From positions 1-64,000 of the forward strand of contig NZ_LNCU01000088.1 in NCBI RefSeq assembly GCF_001542415.1: a DNA stretch of 64,000 nt, in the 5' to 3' direction. A program made the position numbers and the translations under genes. The DNA is from Bradyrhizobium macuxiense. Lineage in GTDB: Bacteria; Pseudomonadota; Alphaproteobacteria; Rhizobiales; Xanthobacteraceae. How positions within the stretch are numbered: the first letter of the stretch is position 1; each line of letters opens with the position of its first letter. Below, one piece after another: positions 44,173 through 50,066 of this stretch. Below the pieces are notes generated by a model that saw only the letters and a list, made by a program, of their open reading frames with translations, was not told the DNA's origin and did no database searches.

Positions 44173-44925
44173 ATGACCAGCACCATTGAAGCTCCCGACA
44201 GCGGCTATCGCTTCATGCCCGGCGTCAGCCAATATTCTTGCGGCATCGCTGCGCTGCCCGGCTTTGCCATCGAGCGCGTCAGGTTCAGCGAGCCGGTGCC
44301 GCTGGCGGACGGCTTCGCTCGGATCGCGCAGATCCTGAGAGCGGCGGGGCGTCCGCTGACGGCGTTCGGCGCCTGCGAGCTGCGGTCGCCGGCTCCGTTC
44401 ACCGAGGAGGGCTTCAAGGCGTTCAACGAGATCTACATCAAAACACTGATCGAGTGGGGCGTGATGCGCGACGGTGTCAATCCGGTGGCGCGCAGCAATG
44501 TCTGTCCGAAGATCGATCCGCCGAAGCAGCCGTGCTTCCACGCCGTCTCCTACACGGTGCCGGCACCGAAGGATGCGCCGGACAGCTTCGTCGTCGCCGG
44601 CAGCGGTGAATCGGTCGAGGGCAAGAGCAATTATCGCGATTGTATCGTCGCGCCCGGCGACACCAGCCCGGCCGGCATGCTTGCGAAAGCGAAATCGGTG
44701 CTTGACGAGATGGAACGCCGGATGAGCGCGTTCGGCAGCACGTGGAAGAACACCACCGCAGTGCAACTCTACACGGTGCACGATGCCTATCCGGTTCTCG
44801 AAAGCGAGCTCGGCCGCCGCGGCGTGTTCCGCAACGGTTTGACCTGGCATTTCGACCGGCCACCGGTGATCGGGCTCGATTACGAGATGGATTGCCGTCG
44901 TGTGCATGTTGAACGCGTGGTCTGA
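44173..44925 (+). CDS. CnbZ/RidA-like deaminase
   Basis: A 250-residue protein from ATG 44173. It recalls 2-amino-5-chloromuconate deaminase CnbZ and related proteins of the RidA superfamily: 'FGACELRSPAPFTEEGFKAF', 'GVNPVARSNVCPKIDPPKQP', 'SFVVAGSGESVEG', 'YRDCIVAPGDTSPAGMLAKA', 'TTAVQLYTVHDAYPV' and 'GLTWHFDRPPVIGLDYEMDC'. The family deaminates enamine or imine compounds such as 2-aminomuconates. No signal peptide is visible, so it is cytosolic. It precedes the exported amine oxidase gene by 108 bases and may act on its products after import. The assignment is from remembered family patterns. Confidence 0.65.
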   Translation: MTSTIEAPDSGYRFMPGVSQYSCGIAALPGFAIERVRFSEPVPLADGFARIAQILRAAGRPLTAFGACELRSPAPFTEEGFKAFNEIYIKTLIEWGVMRDGVNPVARSNVCPKIDPPKQPCFHAVSYTVPAPKDAPDSFVVAGSGESVEGKSNYRDCIVAPGDTSPAGMLAKAKSVLDEMERRMSAFGSTWKNTTAVQLYTVHDAYPVLESELGRRGVFRNGLTWHFDRPPVIGLDYEMDCRRVHVERVV

Positions 44926-45033
44926 CGCATCAAAAACGCGTGTGAGCACACATGGAAGCGTGCGCCCTTTCTTGACACCGGTCGCATCACCCGTTTCCTT
45001 TCTTACACGATCAATGCGGCTGGGTGAGCGCCG

Positions 45034-46626
45034 GTGCAGAACGGATCTGTGATCAAGCGGCGTGACCTGCTCGCGCTGATCGGTACTATCGCCGGCAGTT
45101 CGGCGATGTATCACGCGATGACGAGCCTCGGTTTCGCGTCCGAATCCGCCTACAGAGGTCCACTCAAGCTCGAAGGCAACCCGAAAGGGGCGTCCGTGCT
45201 GATTCTCGGCGCGGGGCTTGCAGGCATGACGGCGGCGCTGGAGCTGCGCAAGGCCGGCTACAAGGTCCACATCCTCGAATTCAACAGCCGCCCCGGCGGC
45301 CGCAACTGGACGATCCGCGGCGGCGACAGTTTTGTCGAGCTCGGCGGCTTCAAGCAGACCTGCGAGTTCGAGCAGGGCTTGTACATCAATCCCGGTCCGT
45401 GGCGGATTCCGTACCACCACCGTGCGTTGCTTGATTACTGTCGGCGGCTCAACGTGACGCTGGAGCCCTTCATCCAGCTCAATCACAATGCGTATATGCA
45501 CGCGACGCGTGCATTCAACGGCAAGCCGCAACGCATCCGCAGCATCAAGGCGGACTTCCGGGGCCAGGTGTCGGAGCTGTTGGCCAAGGTCACGCAACAG
45601 GGCAAGCTCGACGAGGCGGTCAGCAAGGAAGACCAGGAGATCCTGCTGCAGTCGTTGCGCACCTGGGGCGCGCTCGATCGCGACTACAAATACAGTGCCA
45701 ATCTCAACGCGTCCGAGTTCCGCGGCTACGCGCGCGATCCCGGCGGCGGGCTTTCGGCCGATCCGCTGCCGAGCGATCCGATTTCGCTGTCGGACCTCCT
45801 GCGCTCGCAATTGTGGCGCTATCTGCAGGCCTTCTCGCGCTACAATTTCCAGACCACGATGTTCCAGCCGGTCGGCGGCATGGACATGATCGGCAAGGCC
45901 TTCGCGCGCGAGGTCGGCGATCTCATCCGCTTCAACGCCAAGGTCACGCAAATCCAGCAGAACGGCTCCGGGGTCACCGTGAGCTATGTCGATACGAACA
46001 ATCCGGCCGGTGTGCAGCAGGCGGCCGCCGACTGGTGCATCTGCACCATCCCGTTGCCGATCCTGAGCCAGTTACCGATCGATGTCGGCACGCCGATGAA
46101 GAATGCGATCGATTCCCTGCCCTATGCCGCTTCGGTGAAGGTCGGGCTGCAGTTCAGGCGCCGCTTCTGGGAGGAGGACGAGGCGATCTATGGCGGCGTC
46201 AGTTTCACCGACCTGCCGATCCGGCAAATCGGCTATCCGAACTACGACTTCAACCGCAACGGCCGCGGCATCCTGCTCGGCGGCTATCTGTATGAGGGCG
46301 CCAACTCTTTCGAGTTCACCGCGATGACGCCGGCCGAGCGGGTCAAGAGCGCGGTCGAATTCGGTGCCATGATCCATCCGCAATACAAGGACGAGTTCGA
46401 GACCGGTGTGGCGGTGGCGTGGCATCGCGTGCCCTTCACGCTCGGCTGCGCCGGCGAATGGACCGATGCCGGCCGCGCACAGCACTATCGCAACCTCTGC
46501 CAGATCGACGGCCGCATCCTGCTGGCGGGCGAGCATGCTTCCGATCTGCCGGCGTGGCAGGAGGGCGCGATCCTGTCGTCGCTCGATGCCATCACGCGGC
46601 TGCACGAACGGGTGGTGAAGACGTGA
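45034..46626 (+). CDS. Tat-exported flavin monoamine oxidase/dehydrogenase
   Basis: A 530-residue flavoprotein (GTG start). A Tat-like signal, 'IKRRDLLALIGTIAGSSAM', lies at residues 7-25. The FAD-binding motif 'VLILGAGLAGMTAALELRKA' is at about 54-73, with 'RPGGRNWTIRGGDSFVELGG' following. The C-terminal 'GRILLAGEHASDLPAWQEGA' closes the FAD site, as in amine oxidases and L-amino acid oxidases. Export and the directly following cytochrome c gene (sharing the TGATG stop/start) suggest that electrons go to the cytochrome rather than to oxygen, as known for nicotine oxidoreductase NicA2 with CycN. The substrate is unknown. Confidence 0.88.
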   Translation: MQNGSVIKRRDLLALIGTIAGSSAMYHAMTSLGFASESAYRGPLKLEGNPKGASVLILGAGLAGMTAALELRKAGYKVHILEFNSRPGGRNWTIRGGDSFVELGGFKQTCEFEQGLYINPGPWRIPYHHRALLDYCRRLNVTLEPFIQLNHNAYMHATRAFNGKPQRIRSIKADFRGQVSELLAKVTQQGKLDEAVSKEDQEILLQSLRTWGALDRDYKYSANLNASEFRGYARDPGGGLSADPLPSDPISLSDLLRSQLWRYLQAFSRYNFQTTMFQPVGGMDMIGKAFAREVGDLIRFNAKVTQIQQNGSGVTVSYVDTNNPAGVQQAAADWCICTIPLPILSQLPIDVGTPMKNAIDSLPYAASVKVGLQFRRRFWEEDEAIYGGVSFTDLPIRQIGYPNYDFNRNGRGILLGGYLYEGANSFEFTAMTPAERVKSAVEFGAMIHPQYKDEFETGVAVAWHRVPFTLGCAGEWTDAGRAQHYRNLCQIDGRILLAGEHASDLPAWQEGAILSSLDAITRLHERVVKT

Positions 46627-47183
46627 TGCTCGGGTTGTCCTCATGGTTGCGCCGCCGGTGGCTTCATCCTTCGAGACGGCGCTTCGCGCCTCCTCAGGAT
46701 GAGGTCTTAAACCCTCATAGTGAGGAGCGCGGCGATGCCGCGCGTCTCGAACCACGAGGCCGCAGCAAGCGCCATCATCGTTTCATCCCCTTGGCTGGTT
46801 CAGTCGTGTTGCTCACGCTGCTGCCCCTGATGGCGTCGGCAGAAGACAGCGGGACGAGCCCGCGCACCTTCTCGTCAGGCTACCGTTTCGTGGAGATGAC
46901 CGGCGAGGAGCTGTTTGCCAACGTCTGCCAGGGCTGCCACATGCCGGATGCGACGGGAGCGAGCGGCGCCGGCCGCTATCCATCGCTGGCCGGCAACAAG
47001 AATCTCGAATCCGGCAACTACCCGATCTTCCTCGTCGTCAACGGCCGCCGCGGAATGCCGGCGTTCGGCGACATGATGACCGATGGCCAGGTCGCCGCCG
47101 TTGTGAATTACTTGCGGACGCATTTTGGCAACAACTATCAGGATGTGGTGACGGCCAAGGATGTCCAGGAAGCCCGCCGTTAA
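46626..47183 (+). CDS. Exported cytochrome c, partner of the amine oxidase
   Basis: From ATG at 46626, overlapping the oxidase stop, this gives 185 residues. The haem site is 'CQGCH' in 'FANVCQGCHMPDATGAS' and the probable axial Met is in 'NGRRGMPAFGDMMTDGQ', a single-haem class I cytochrome. A hydrophobic segment, 'SVVLLTLLPLMASAED', serves as signal peptide. It is preceded by about 45 unusual residues, rich in Arg, Pro and Glu, of which about 36 come from a dispersed palindromic repeat (46657-46763) inserted in frame. It should accept electrons from the flavoenzyme in the periplasm and pass them to the respiratory chain. Confidence 0.85.
   Translation: MLGLSSWLRRRWLHPSRRRFAPPQDEVLNPHSEERGDAARLEPRGRSKRHHRFIPLAGSVVLLTLLPLMASAEDSGTSPRTFSSGYRFVEMTGEELFANVCQGCHMPDATGASGAGRYPSLAGNKNLESGNYPIFLVVNGRRGMPAFGDMMTDGQVAAVVNYLRTHFGNNYQDVVTAKDVQEARR
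46657..46763. repeat. Dispersed palindromic repeat inside the cytochrome c gene
   Basis: Two arms, around 46661-46707 and 46712-46760, pair imperfectly (CTTCGAGACGGCGC against GCCGCGCGTCTCGAA; CTCCTCAGGATGAGG against CCTCATAGTGAGGAG). The unit matches in style the intergenic palindromes of this genome but lies within an open reading frame, adding about 36 codons without a stop. Confidence 0.75.
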
Positions 47184-47207
47184 TTGCATATGTTCGGGGA
47201 GGGGATG

Positions 47208-47699
47208 ATGAAACTTGTCGGTATCGTGCTGGGGGCTGCCCTGTCCGCCGTGACGACCGCTACCTGCGCGGACGTGGTCAGGCATCCGATTCCCAACTCG
47301 ACATTCCCGATCGCGCAGTCGGTCACGGTCACCGGCAACGCCACGATTATCTATGTCAGCGGCCAGGTGCCGCCAGTCATCAACAAGGATGCCGATTCCT
47401 CGAGCCCGCAGGCCTATGGCGATACCAAGACCCAGACTGTCGGCGTGCTCAATCGCATCAAGGGCGTCCTCGTCGGCCAGGGGATGGGCATGGGCGACGT
47501 CGTCAAGATGCAGGTGTTCCTGGTTCACACCCCGGCGGCGCCGATGGACTTCAAGGCCTTCATGGAAGGCTACACCCAGTTCTTCGGCGGCAGCCAACCG
47601 AACCTGCCCGCGCGCTCCGTGGTCGGCGTCGCCGCGCTCGCCAATCCCGGCTTCCTGGTCGAGATCGAGGTGATTGCGGCCAAGGATGCTGCGAAGTGA
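47208..47699 (+). CDS. Exported RidA-family protein
   Basis: A 163-residue protein from ATG 47208 (GGGGAGGGG at 47196-47204). A signal peptide ends near 'TATCADVVRH'. The rest is a RidA/YjgF domain: 'PIAQSVTVTGNATIIYVSGQ', 'LNRIKGVLVGQGMGMGDVVK', 'MQVFLVHT', 'FFGGSQPNLPARSVVGVAAL' (active-site Arg) and 'VEIEVIAAK'. RidA proteins hydrolyse reactive imines and enamines to carbonyls plus ammonia, mostly in the cytosol. Here the signal peptide puts the activity in the periplasm, where the amine oxidase would produce imines. It follows the cytochrome gene by 24 bases, in one operon. Confidence 0.85.
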   Translation: MKLVGIVLGAALSAVTTATCADVVRHPIPNSTFPIAQSVTVTGNATIIYVSGQVPPVINKDADSSSPQAYGDTKTQTVGVLNRIKGVLVGQGMGMGDVVKMQVFLVHTPAAPMDFKAFMEGYTQFFGGSQPNLPARSVVGVAALANPGFLVEIEVIAAKDAAK

Positions 47700-47816: not shown

Positions 47817-49244
47817 ATGTCACACAAGAGCAAGAAAACGAGTCGATCGCTGCTGCTGTCGTCAGCCGTCTTCGGTCCGCTGCTGCTGGCAACGGGCGCG
47901 GCGGCGCAAGGATTGACCGAGCAGCAGCAATTCGCCCGCGGCATCTATCAGGAGTTGGTTGAGATCAACACCACCACCGCGACCGGTGACACGCAGAAAG
48001 CGGCAGAGGCGATGGGCGCGCGGCTGCGTGCAGCGGGCTTCTCCGAGGACGACGTGCATGTGTTCTCGCCGGCGCCGCACAAGGGCGATCTGGTGGCGCG
48101 GCTGCGCGGTTCCGGTGCGAAGAAGCCGATCCTGCTGCTCGCCCATATCGACGTCGTTCCGGCGAACCGCGAGGACTGGTCGGTCGATCCGTTCAAGCTG
48201 ACCGAGCAGGACGGCTATTTCTACGGCCGCGGCAGCAGCGACGACAAATACATGGCCGCATCCTTCATCACCAACCTGATCCGCTACAAGAAGGAGGGCT
48301 ACAAGCCTGACCGCGACATCATCGTGGCGCTGGAAACCGATGAGGAGATCCTGGATGCCAACGGCCTCGGCATCCAGTGGCTGATCAAGAACCATCGCGA
48401 CCTGATCGACGCCGAATTTGCGCTGAACGAAGGTGGCGGCGTCGGCCTGAAGAACGGCAAGGCGATCCGCAACAGCGTGCAGACCAGCGAGAAGGTCTCG
48501 ATCGGCTATCAGCTTACGGTGAAGGATCGCGGCGGCCACTCATCGCTGCCGCGCAAGGACAATGCGATCTATCGCCTCGCCGAAGGTCTCATTCGGCTCT
48601 CCAACTACAGCTTCCCGCTCAATCTCAATGAGACGACGCGGATCTATTTCACGAGGACGGCGGAGACGGAGAGCAAGCAGAACGCCGACGACATCCGCGC
48701 TGTGCTGGCGCCGCAGCCCGATCCGGCCGCGCTGGCACGGTTGTCGGAGCATCCCGGCTATAACGCGCAGCTCCGTACCACCTGCGTCGCGACCATGCTG
48801 CAAGGCGGCCATGCCCTCAATGCGCTGCCACAGCTTGCGACCGCCAAGGTGAATTGCCGGATCATGCCCGGCGAGCCGGTCGAGGGCGTGCAGACGGCGA
48901 TCGAGCGCGTGCTCGCCGACAAGCAGATTGCGGTGACGCCGACCGGCAAGGCCGTGCTGAGCCCGCCGTCGCCGCTGAACGAGGAGGTCATGGGATCGAT
49001 CGAGAAGCTGTCGAAGGAGTTCTGGCCGGATGCCGCGATCGTCCCGGTCATGAGCACCGGCGCCACCGACGGCAGCTATCTGCGCAATGCCGGGATTCCG
49101 ACCTATGGCCATTCCGGGCTTGCCGCCGATGTCGATGACAACAGGAATCATGGCAGGGACGAGCGTGTGCTCGTAAAGTCGTTCTATGAGGGCCAGGACT
49201 ATCTTTATCGCCTGGTCAAGATGCTCGCGGGAGGCAAGTCGTAA
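47817..49244 (+). CDS. Exported M20-family metallopeptidase
   Basis: From ATG at 47817 the protein has 475 residues with a signal peptide ending 'GAAAQGLT'. It is an M20/M25/M40 peptidase: 'LLLAHIDVVPANREDW' supplies a His metal ligand, 'YGRGSSDDKYMAASF' a bridging Asp, 'LETDEEILDANG' the catalytic Glu region, and 'YGHSGLAADVDDNRNHG' a late His. The dimerisation domain ('VKDRGGHSSLPRKDN') is present. It would release amino acids from peptides or N-acyl compounds in the periplasm. It may supply the amine oxidase system with substrate; that is inference from position only. Confidence 0.87.
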   Translation: MSHKSKKTSRSLLLSSAVFGPLLLATGAAAQGLTEQQQFARGIYQELVEINTTTATGDTQKAAEAMGARLRAAGFSEDDVHVFSPAPHKGDLVARLRGSGAKKPILLLAHIDVVPANREDWSVDPFKLTEQDGYFYGRGSSDDKYMAASFITNLIRYKKEGYKPDRDIIVALETDEEILDANGLGIQWLIKNHRDLIDAEFALNEGGGVGLKNGKAIRNSVQTSEKVSIGYQLTVKDRGGHSSLPRKDNAIYRLAEGLIRLSNYSFPLNLNETTRIYFTRTAETESKQNADDIRAVLAPQPDPAALARLSEHPGYNAQLRTTCVATMLQGGHALNALPQLATAKVNCRIMPGEPVEGVQTAIERVLADKQIAVTPTGKAVLSPPSPLNEEVMGSIEKLSKEFWPDAAIVPVMSTGATDGSYLRNAGIPTYGHSGLAADVDDNRNHGRDERVLVKSFYEGQDYLYRLVKMLAGGKS

Positions 49245-49247
49245 GCA

Positions 49248-50066
49248 ATGGCAGATTCAGGGATCAAGACCCGCGTGGCGGTGGCCGGCCTCGGTGCGAT
49301 CGGGGCTGACGTCGTCAAGGCGCTCGATCGGGGTATCGACGGGCTGGCGCTGGTGGCGGTGTCGTCGCAGGATCCCGGGAAGCATCGCGCCTGGCTTGCC
49401 GAGCTGAAGACACAGCCGAAGGTGCTGCCGATCGCGGACCTTGCCGATATCGCCGATATCGTCGTCGAATGTGCGCCGAGCAAGCTCGTGCGTTCGATCG
49501 TGGCGCCGGCGGTCGAGCGCGGCAAGACGGCTGTCGTGCTCAGCGTGGGCGCATTGTTGCAAAACGAGGACCTGATCGGTCTTGCCGCCGAGAATGGTGG
49601 CCAGATCATCGTGCCGACCGGCGCGCTGATCGGGCTCGATGCGGTGACCGCCGCGGCGCTCGGGACCATCCATTCGGCAAGGATCGTGACACGGAAGCCG
49701 ATCGCCGGCCTGCTCGGTGCGCCGTATCTGGTCGAGAACGACATCCAGATCGAAGGCATCACCGAGCCGCTGCGGATTTTCGAAGGGACCGCGCGTGAGG
49801 CGGCGAAGGGCTTTCCGGCCAATCTCAACGTCGCGGTGGCGCTGTCGCTCGCCGGGATCGGTCCCGACCGCACCCGGGTCGAGATCTGGGCGGACCCGAC
49901 GGTGACGCGCAACACCCACCGCATCGAGGTCGATGCCGATTCGGCGCGGTTCTCGATGACGATCGAGAATATCCCCTCGGAGAACCCGAAGACCGGCCGC
50001 ATCACCGCGTTGTCGGTGATCGCCTGCCTGCGCAAGCTGCGCGCACCGCTGCGGATCGGGACGTGA
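49248..50066 (+). CDS. nadX: L-aspartate dehydrogenase
   Basis: A 272-residue NAD(P)-dependent enzyme with the dinucleotide motif 'VAVAGLGAIGADVVKAL' (about 11-27), 'VECAPSKLVRSIVAP', and the catalytic His of 'TRNTHRIEVDADS'. The aspartate dehydrogenase family oxidises L-aspartate to iminoaspartate, which feeds NAD synthesis with quinolinate synthase. The pncA gene follows after 7 bases, consistent with a NAD-related unit. It starts 3 bases behind the M20 peptidase gene, so it may be cotranscribed with the exported amine genes. Confidence 0.88.
   Translation: MADSGIKTRVAVAGLGAIGADVVKALDRGIDGLALVAVSSQDPGKHRAWLAELKTQPKVLPIADLADIADIVVECAPSKLVRSIVAPAVERGKTAVVLSVGALLQNEDLIGLAAENGGQIIVPTGALIGLDAVTAAALGTIHSARIVTRKPIAGLLGAPYLVENDIQIEGITEPLRIFEGTAREAAKGFPANLNVAVALSLAGIGPDRTRVEIWADPTVTRNTHRIEVDADSARFSMTIENIPSENPKTGRITALSVIACLRKLRAPLRIGT

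Follow-up and report, generated by a model that had tools for sequence, protein, structure and literature searches.

A probable periplasmic L-amino acid dehydrogenase operon of the lao–cccA–ridA kind in Bradyrhizobium macuxiense

A flavin amine oxidase gene followed by a cytochrome c gene and a gene for an exported Rid protein raises two questions: to which acceptor the flavoprotein would pass its electrons, and what a Rid protein would do outside the cytoplasm. Such a locus lies in a 64,000-nucleotide stretch of the 8.7-Mb genome of Bradyrhizobium macuxiense (contig NZ_LNCU01000088.1, positions 1 to 64,000; hereafter the window), and its nearest named relatives are those of Bradyrhizobium. 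A first-pass annotation of the window described four consecutive genes, encoding a CnbZ-like deaminase, a flavin amine oxidase exported by twin-arginine translocation (Tat), a single-haem cytochrome c and a RidA protein with a signal peptide, and proposed a relay in which the flavoprotein reduces the cytochrome and the exported Rid clears the resulting imine. Reading frames and Pfam and NCBIfam matches place all four genes where that annotation had them (Table 1). Here we compare the locus across genomes. As read from the loci compared, its core is an L-amino acid oxidase (LAAO)-family gene, a cytochrome c gene and a Rid gene, in that order. This core is probably an operon of the lao–cccA–ridA kind for a periplasmic L-amino acid dehydrogenase, and the proposed relay is likely, in that it fits the comparative evidence.

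A genome collection was scanned with the Rid protein of the window, and the best 80 of 406 confirmed relatives were taken as Rid-centred loci. An LAAO homologue is present in all 80 and a cytochrome in 76; judged by gene order, the arrangement is not due to chance, because in those 76 the LAAO, cytochrome and Rid genes follow one another in this order on one strand. The four loci without a cytochrome (L059, L062, L068 and L074) are cyanobacterial, the Rid gene of L040 lies about 3 kb from the oxidase gene, and the Xanthomonas melonis locus L085 has the set too. This sample is biased towards Rid-bearing loci, and a second, centred on the oxidase, was hence assembled. Of 299 genomes of the phylum, 18 hold a homologue of the oxidase at E 1e-50; at E 1e-40 the class gives 19 of 385 genomes and another class 5 of 369, these samples overlapping. 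The oxidase-centred sample comprises 38 regions with 39 full-length oxidases, the fragment G386:C379 being excluded. A cytochrome accompanies 21 of the 39, and 13 of these 21 also have a Rid gene on the same strand within 2.5 kb; the 18 without a cytochrome include 7 with a Rid. The first-pass annotation had suggested a neighbourhood search for oxidase, cytochrome and leader-bearing Rid, and the Rid-centred loci, together with the leaders described below, bear out their co-occurrence.

The cytochrome gene of the window has a single haem motif, CQGCH (46926-46940), and its ATG overlaps the stop codon of the oxidase gene at 46626, as first described. In a quick tree of 56 oxidases (39 from the oxidase-centred sample and 17 picked from the 80 Rid-centred loci), the monohaem cytochrome is confined to one clade of 35 rows, with a support of 98 by the Shimodaira–Hasegawa-like approximate likelihood ratio test (SH-aLRT), and its distribution is a single change of state. 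Oxidase homologues without the cytochrome, which the first-pass annotation would have counted against its relay, thus exist, but lie outside the cytochrome clade. Also outside this clade, L126 has a cytochrome with two CxxCH motifs between its oxidase and a leader-bearing Rid (L126:2359-2976, minus strand); it is one case of an independent cytochrome pairing with the same kind of oxidase, as an electron-acceptor role predicts. A 2025 study of NicA2-like enzymes (PMC12224317; this and the other papers are cited from the portions of their text that were available) describes dihaem c4-type partners in its clade 1, which the L126 cytochrome resembles, and reports that a Tat signal with an adjacent cytochrome c predicts cytochrome-using dehydrogenases, the adjacent cytochrome being the stronger predictor. 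A Tat signal and an adjacent cytochrome with a Sec-type leader are both present at the window locus as judged by motif, the leader of its cytochrome being lengthened by a repeat.

By sequence and by its structure model, the window oxidase is a member of the LAAO branch of the flavin amine oxidoreductases. Its best solved relative in a sequence search is the Rhodococcus opacus L-amino acid oxidase 2jae (E 7e-90; 38% identity across 470 aligned residues), and a model built from 57 sequences (mean predicted local distance difference test (pLDDT) score 93.7) matches 2jae first (template modelling (TM) score 0.92, root-mean-square deviation 1.7) and the venom LAAOs next. We take 2jae, the closest enzyme in both sequence and fold, to be an O2-using oxidase, and in this it differs from the dehydrogenase proposed here. 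All 57 aligned sequences share R124, K369 and W508, and R124 aligns with the arginine of the RIP motif of 2jae, which we presume to bind the substrate carboxylate. Because an LAAO is the closest solved structure and the RIP-aligned arginine is invariant, L-amino acids are likelier substrates than plain amines; where the first-pass annotation had left the choice at an amine or amino acid, the latter is retained and plain amines recede. The Tat leader that it reported is visible as KRRDLL followed by a weakly hydrophobic stretch. A loose RR/KR motif occurs in 114 of 114 oxidase homologues with a full N terminus, with or without a cytochrome, and the Tat motif was therefore discarded as a marker of cytochrome use. 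Among the 14 Amino_oxidase matches of the genome, only the window oxidase is closely related to LAAO; a search with the oxidase itself gives, after it, a short match at E 8.8e-4. In a relative, a second oxidase copy (G1077:C5:2783-4212) is in two pieces, with a TGA inside one, and is probably a decaying duplicate.

The Rid protein has its nearest solved structures in 9bka (PSPTO3006) and 9bkc (PFL1385), both Rid3 proteins in the naming of PMC5619798, and its active-site arginine is invariant among the aligned Rids. The signal peptide first reported for it is seen in its sequence, MMKLVGIVLGAALSAVTTATCA. Leaders and Tat signals were called by home-made rules, not by SignalP. The leader rule is positive for 99 of 101 oxidase-neighbouring Rids; of the two exceptions, L147 has a leader by eye and L129 has none. 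Among control proteins it scores 0/26 CnbZ proteins, 0/24 aspartate dehydrogenases, 0/3 aminotransferases and 0/3 regulators, and among other neighbours 38/41 M20 peptidases and only 71/96 cytochromes, so that it misses some true leaders. Inspected by eye, the leaders of six Rids (L113, L115, L118, L119, L171 and L172) end in lipobox-like motifs, LTGC, VTGC and IGAC among them, which suggests lipid-anchored proteins; a loose lipobox pattern matched 11 Rids, several of them doubtful. The genome of the window strain encodes 12 other Rid domains, one with a leader. This second exported candidate (L170:3930-5297, minus strand, on contig C107) carries a signal peptide. PF01042 matches it twice, for a minimum of two Rid domains, and its length of 455 residues suggests a third. 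No amine oxidase is found among the frames listed around it on its contig, and exported Rids thus appear to have other uses as well.

Furthermore, export of the Rid follows export of the oxidase. Across all loci the two export calls agree by rule in 143 of 155 pairs, a count that uses a laxer Rid rule than the count of 101 Rids (the CnbZ and aspartate dehydrogenase controls refer to the stricter rule) and that excludes 4 pairs without an N terminus. Nine of the 12 discordant pairs have oxidases that are Tat-negative for one or two early Lys or Arg residues in the stretch; in the others, L144 has no motif scored, L195 is positive at the wrong RR and L234 has a leader without Lys or Arg. In another genus, that of G286, whose Rids are similar to PSPTO_3006 and PFL_1385 of Pseudomonas, the oxidase occurs in 64 of 249 genomes, and the 62 oxidase–Rid pairs divide by rule into 31 with both signals, 27 with neither and 4 discordant. 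The signal-less pairs fall within a single 29-row clade (SH-aLRT 100); there the rule scores a Rid leader in none of the rows and finds no Tat stretch in 28, the exception being L195 with its wrong RR. Among the N termini inspected (not all 29), the oxidases retain a remnant such as TRREALSSIAAVGG, with charged residues after it, and the Rids begin with the domain itself. As read from these signals, export of oxidase and Rid was lost together, once, and this joint loss favours the view that both act in the same compartment. A Fisher P value for the agreement takes no account of relatedness and is given no weight here. The matched exported and leaderless pairs of this genus offer a natural test of the need for a shared compartment, the leaderless ones being in effect an experiment of nature in moving to the cytoplasm; loci with a degenerate Tat signal and a leaderless Rid include L179, L180, L189-L192, L194-L200, L202, L204 and more up to L229.

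The kind of cluster is already known. A 2016 study (PMC5053998) describes lao–cccA–ridA in Gluconacetobacter diazotrophicus PAL5 (GDI2456-2454): a Tn5 insertion in lao left no detectable auxin and little indole-pyruvate, transcripts of all three genes dropped in the mutant, and mutants in ccm are reported at 5% of auxin. Its authors noted the same organisation in Caulobacter and Xanthomonas and proposed that the cytochrome and RidA act with the LAAO. The PAL5 cluster, compared here by its description, has the same three genes together, with an LAAO that carries a Tat signal and is related to that of R. opacus. It differs in that its evidence is genetic and concerns tryptophan, in that the available text does not mention a signal peptide on RidA, and in that the CnbZ, M20 peptidase and aspartate dehydrogenase neighbours belong to the Bradyrhizobium-type locus. 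A periplasmic LAAO is also paired with a RidA protein in Chlamydomonas, where LAO1 and LAO2/RIDA are reported to deaminate extracellular amino acids in the periplasm (PMC10805672); this pair, unlike that of the window, is eukaryotic and reported to make H2O2, and no cytochrome partner is mentioned in the available text. The first-pass statement that an exported RidA tied to such an enzyme is undescribed therefore mostly falls, and the comparisons of the cytochrome clade and of matched export were not found in the literature searched.

Other precedents are partial. NicA2 with CycN (PMC12224317) likewise combines a Tat-type flavoprotein amine oxidoreductase and an adjacent single-haem cytochrome c, but the set of that study was collected by BLAST from NicA2, whereas the nearest solved family here is the LAAOs; its available text holds none of the terms LAAO, L-amino acid, imine or RidA. 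The Rid3 proteins PFL_1385 and PSPTO_3006 (PDB 9bkc and 9bka), whose catalytic arginine is kept in the window Rid, remove imines made by LAAO in vitro, but were assayed with snake-venom LAAO and DauA rather than with a neighbouring bacterial LAAO, and the available text contains neither 'signal' nor 'periplasm' (PMC5619798). RidA genes, and sometimes Rid3 genes, cluster with amine oxidase genes according to PMC4433059, where 'signal peptide' and 'periplasm' are likewise absent from the available text. PMC9537276 and PMC7688666 were set aside as precedents, since the RidA or Rid6 proteins in their available text have no leader-bearing LAAO partner. A biochemical test of the LAAO–cytochrome–Rid set was not found in the literature searched, most subscription journals lying outside its scope.

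The genes, leaders, conserved linkage, LAAO fold and conserved residues can be read directly from the sequence; the mechanism that would join them is as follows. The Tat-exported flavoprotein would oxidize L-amino acids, its presumed range of substrates, to imino acids. Its reduced flavin adenine dinucleotide (FADH2) would be re-oxidized by the neighbouring cytochrome c, the putative acceptor, which would hand the electrons to the respiratory chain. In the same compartment, the exported Rid would convert the imino acid to keto acid and ammonium, provided that it acts on the product of the oxidase. More broadly, the balance of evidence leans towards the view that an unassayed clade of LAAO homologues turned into cytochrome-c-using L-amino acid dehydrogenases, by a switch separate from that of NicA2 and Pnao, and that the exported Rid is matched to its compartment, the two losing export together; the whole would amount to a unit for respiring amino acids in the periplasm, equipped with an imine hydrolase of its own. 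If so, the electrons released when amino acids are oxidized in the periplasm would pass directly to respiration rather than form H2O2, and the removal of reactive imines by bacteria would take place both within and beyond the cytoplasm. The 2025 amine dehydrogenase finding would then extend to the LAAO branch, and the auxin loss in cytochrome c maturation mutants of G. diazotrophicus could be explained.

Several observations weigh against this interpretation. Of 98 cytochrome-bearing rows, 13 fail the strict Tat rule, some of them being fragments or having a charged residue in the stretch, and the joint loss of export, confined to a single clade, is one event and not 29. In the oxidase-centred sample, 8 of the 21 cytochrome-bearing oxidases lack a same-strand Rid within 2.5 kb, so that this part of what the first-pass annotation had set against its own relay is found in some loci. 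Among the eight, L136 has a Rid on the other strand, G547 and G456 have one about 3 kb upstream, and the genomes G155 and G259 hold one beside another oxidase; the genomes G466, G074 and G138 give no match to the window Rid at E 1e-12. The active-site lysine linked to O2 reactivity is present in the window oxidase; because this lysine occurs in dehydrogenases and oxidases alike (PMC12224317), the sequence does not settle the acceptor. Kinetics for this LAAO branch were not found in the literature searched.

The cytochrome of the window strain may itself be impaired, by an inverted repeat of about 120 bp in its leader region. The repeat separates the start codon (46626) from the hydrophobic stretch of the leader. 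The first-pass annotation, whose gene and haem motif stand, had missed this dispersed, in-frame element. Scoring of 40 out of 117 candidates gives it at least 58 matches in the genome, its own copy counted, and it is matched in none of the 76 oxidase–cytochrome junctions of the Rid-centred relatives; about 300 bp separate the oxidase end from the haem motif in the window, versus 150-168 bp in seven close relatives. The frame stays open through the repeat, giving a leader n-region of about 50 residues.

Of the competing explanations, the one that survives best, though it is still unlikely, is that the cluster serves auxin formation above all, by turning tryptophan into indole-3-pyruvate as in G. 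diazotrophicus, and not the use of amino acids in general. The loss of auxin and most indole-pyruvate in the lao Tn5 mutants of that species (PMC5053998) and the Bradyrhizobium affinities of the window locus would fit such a role. No match in the genome, however, passes the cut-off of the indolepyruvate decarboxylase family TIGR03394 (best 99 versus 554.5 bits; other decarboxylase families were not searched), and the amino-acid ATP-binding cassette (ABC) permease, leader-bearing M20 peptidase and aspartate dehydrogenase neighbours suggest general amino acid or peptide use.

Slightly less likely again is a flavoprotein that works in the periplasm as an L-amino acid oxidase using O2, with a cytochrome that disposes of H2O2 or is merely co-expressed. 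Against this reading, the window cytochrome has one CxxCH only, unlike dihaem peroxidases, and the monohaem cytochrome goes with a single clade of oxidases. In its favour, 2jae and other solved relatives of the LAAO family were deposited under the name of oxidases, and homologues outside the cytochrome clade also carry the RR/KR leader motif by the loose rule (10 of 22 by the strict rule). In PMC12224317, most of the tested Tat-exported enzymes without an adjacent cytochrome are fast with O2, but it is the adjacent cytochrome, present here, that better predicts a dehydrogenase among NicA2-like enzymes. That the Rid serves another exported pathway and adjoins the oxidase by history only is very improbable, given the linkage in 76 of 80 Rid-centred loci, the way its export status tracks that of the oxidase and the action of Rid3 proteins on LAAO products in vitro (PMC5619798), against which stand the second leader-bearing Rid of the genome and the cytochrome-bearing oxidases without a Rid nearby.

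Table 1. Features of the locus in the window, with coordinates, strand and supporting evidence.
Feature	Coordinates	Strand	Evidence or remark
CnbZ-type deaminase, no leader	44173-44925	+	NF049982, 386 bits (cut-off 220); neighbour rather than core
LAAO-family flavin amine oxidase	45034-46626	+	PF01593 Amino_oxidase, 172.6 bits; 2jae best by sequence and fold; pLDDT 93.7
Tat-type signal segment with KRRDLL	45034-45138	+	sequence; segment end inferred
Single-haem cytochrome c (cccA-like)	46626-47183	+	PF13442, 49 bits; PF00034, 40.8 bits; one CxxCH
Dispersed inverted repeat, in frame, cytochrome leader region	46652-46772	.	at least 58 matches in own genome; 0/76 relatives
Exported Rid protein (by leader), nearest Rid3 structures	47205-47699	+	PF01042, 73.8 bits; 9bka (PSPTO3006), 9bkc (PFL1385)
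Sec-type signal peptide of Rid	47205-47270	+	sequence; cleavage site inferred
Codon of conserved Rid arginine, PARS motif	47613-47615	+	invariant in 33/33 aligned Rids; loose motif 101/101
M20 peptidase with signal peptide	47817-49244	+	PF01546, 106.1 bits; common neighbour in Bradyrhizobium-like loci

Around the predicted periplasmic dehydrogenase core, family searches identify two amino-acid ABC permease genes 5′ of the four genes and, 3′ of them, a leader-bearing M20 peptidase gene and an aspartate dehydrogenase gene. Among the 42 loci L009-L050, an M20 peptidase gene follows the Rid gene within 800 bp in 35 and an aspartate dehydrogenase gene lies within 4 kb in 23 (the corresponding window region is 47817-50066), a pattern suggesting that the use of peptides or acyl-amino acids supplies the oxidase.

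The four-gene unit of the first-pass annotation contracts to its LAAO, cytochrome and Rid members. Of 117 genomes of the genus, 112 have CnbZ and 30 the oxidase, and the two adjoin in 15 of those 30, as read from the listed coordinates; CnbZ was accordingly rejected as a core part. All 15 adjoining oxidases are at least 82% identical to the query, and CnbZ is probably a lineage-specific, recent neighbour. Its product gives no Pfam match, and its predicted activity comes from the NF049982 equivalog; the structure model is poor (pLDDT 63.7), its Rid-like and Toblerone-fold matches and a 51% profile match being leads only. The genome has two CnbZ copies, that of the window and G000:C40:36495-37214; frames around the latter (L167) look by eye like resistance–nodulation–division (RND) efflux and peptide ABC transport genes and offer no explanation of the copy. 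In the genus as a whole, one CnbZ copy is near-universal, and an extra copy lies beside the oxidase in a sublineage.

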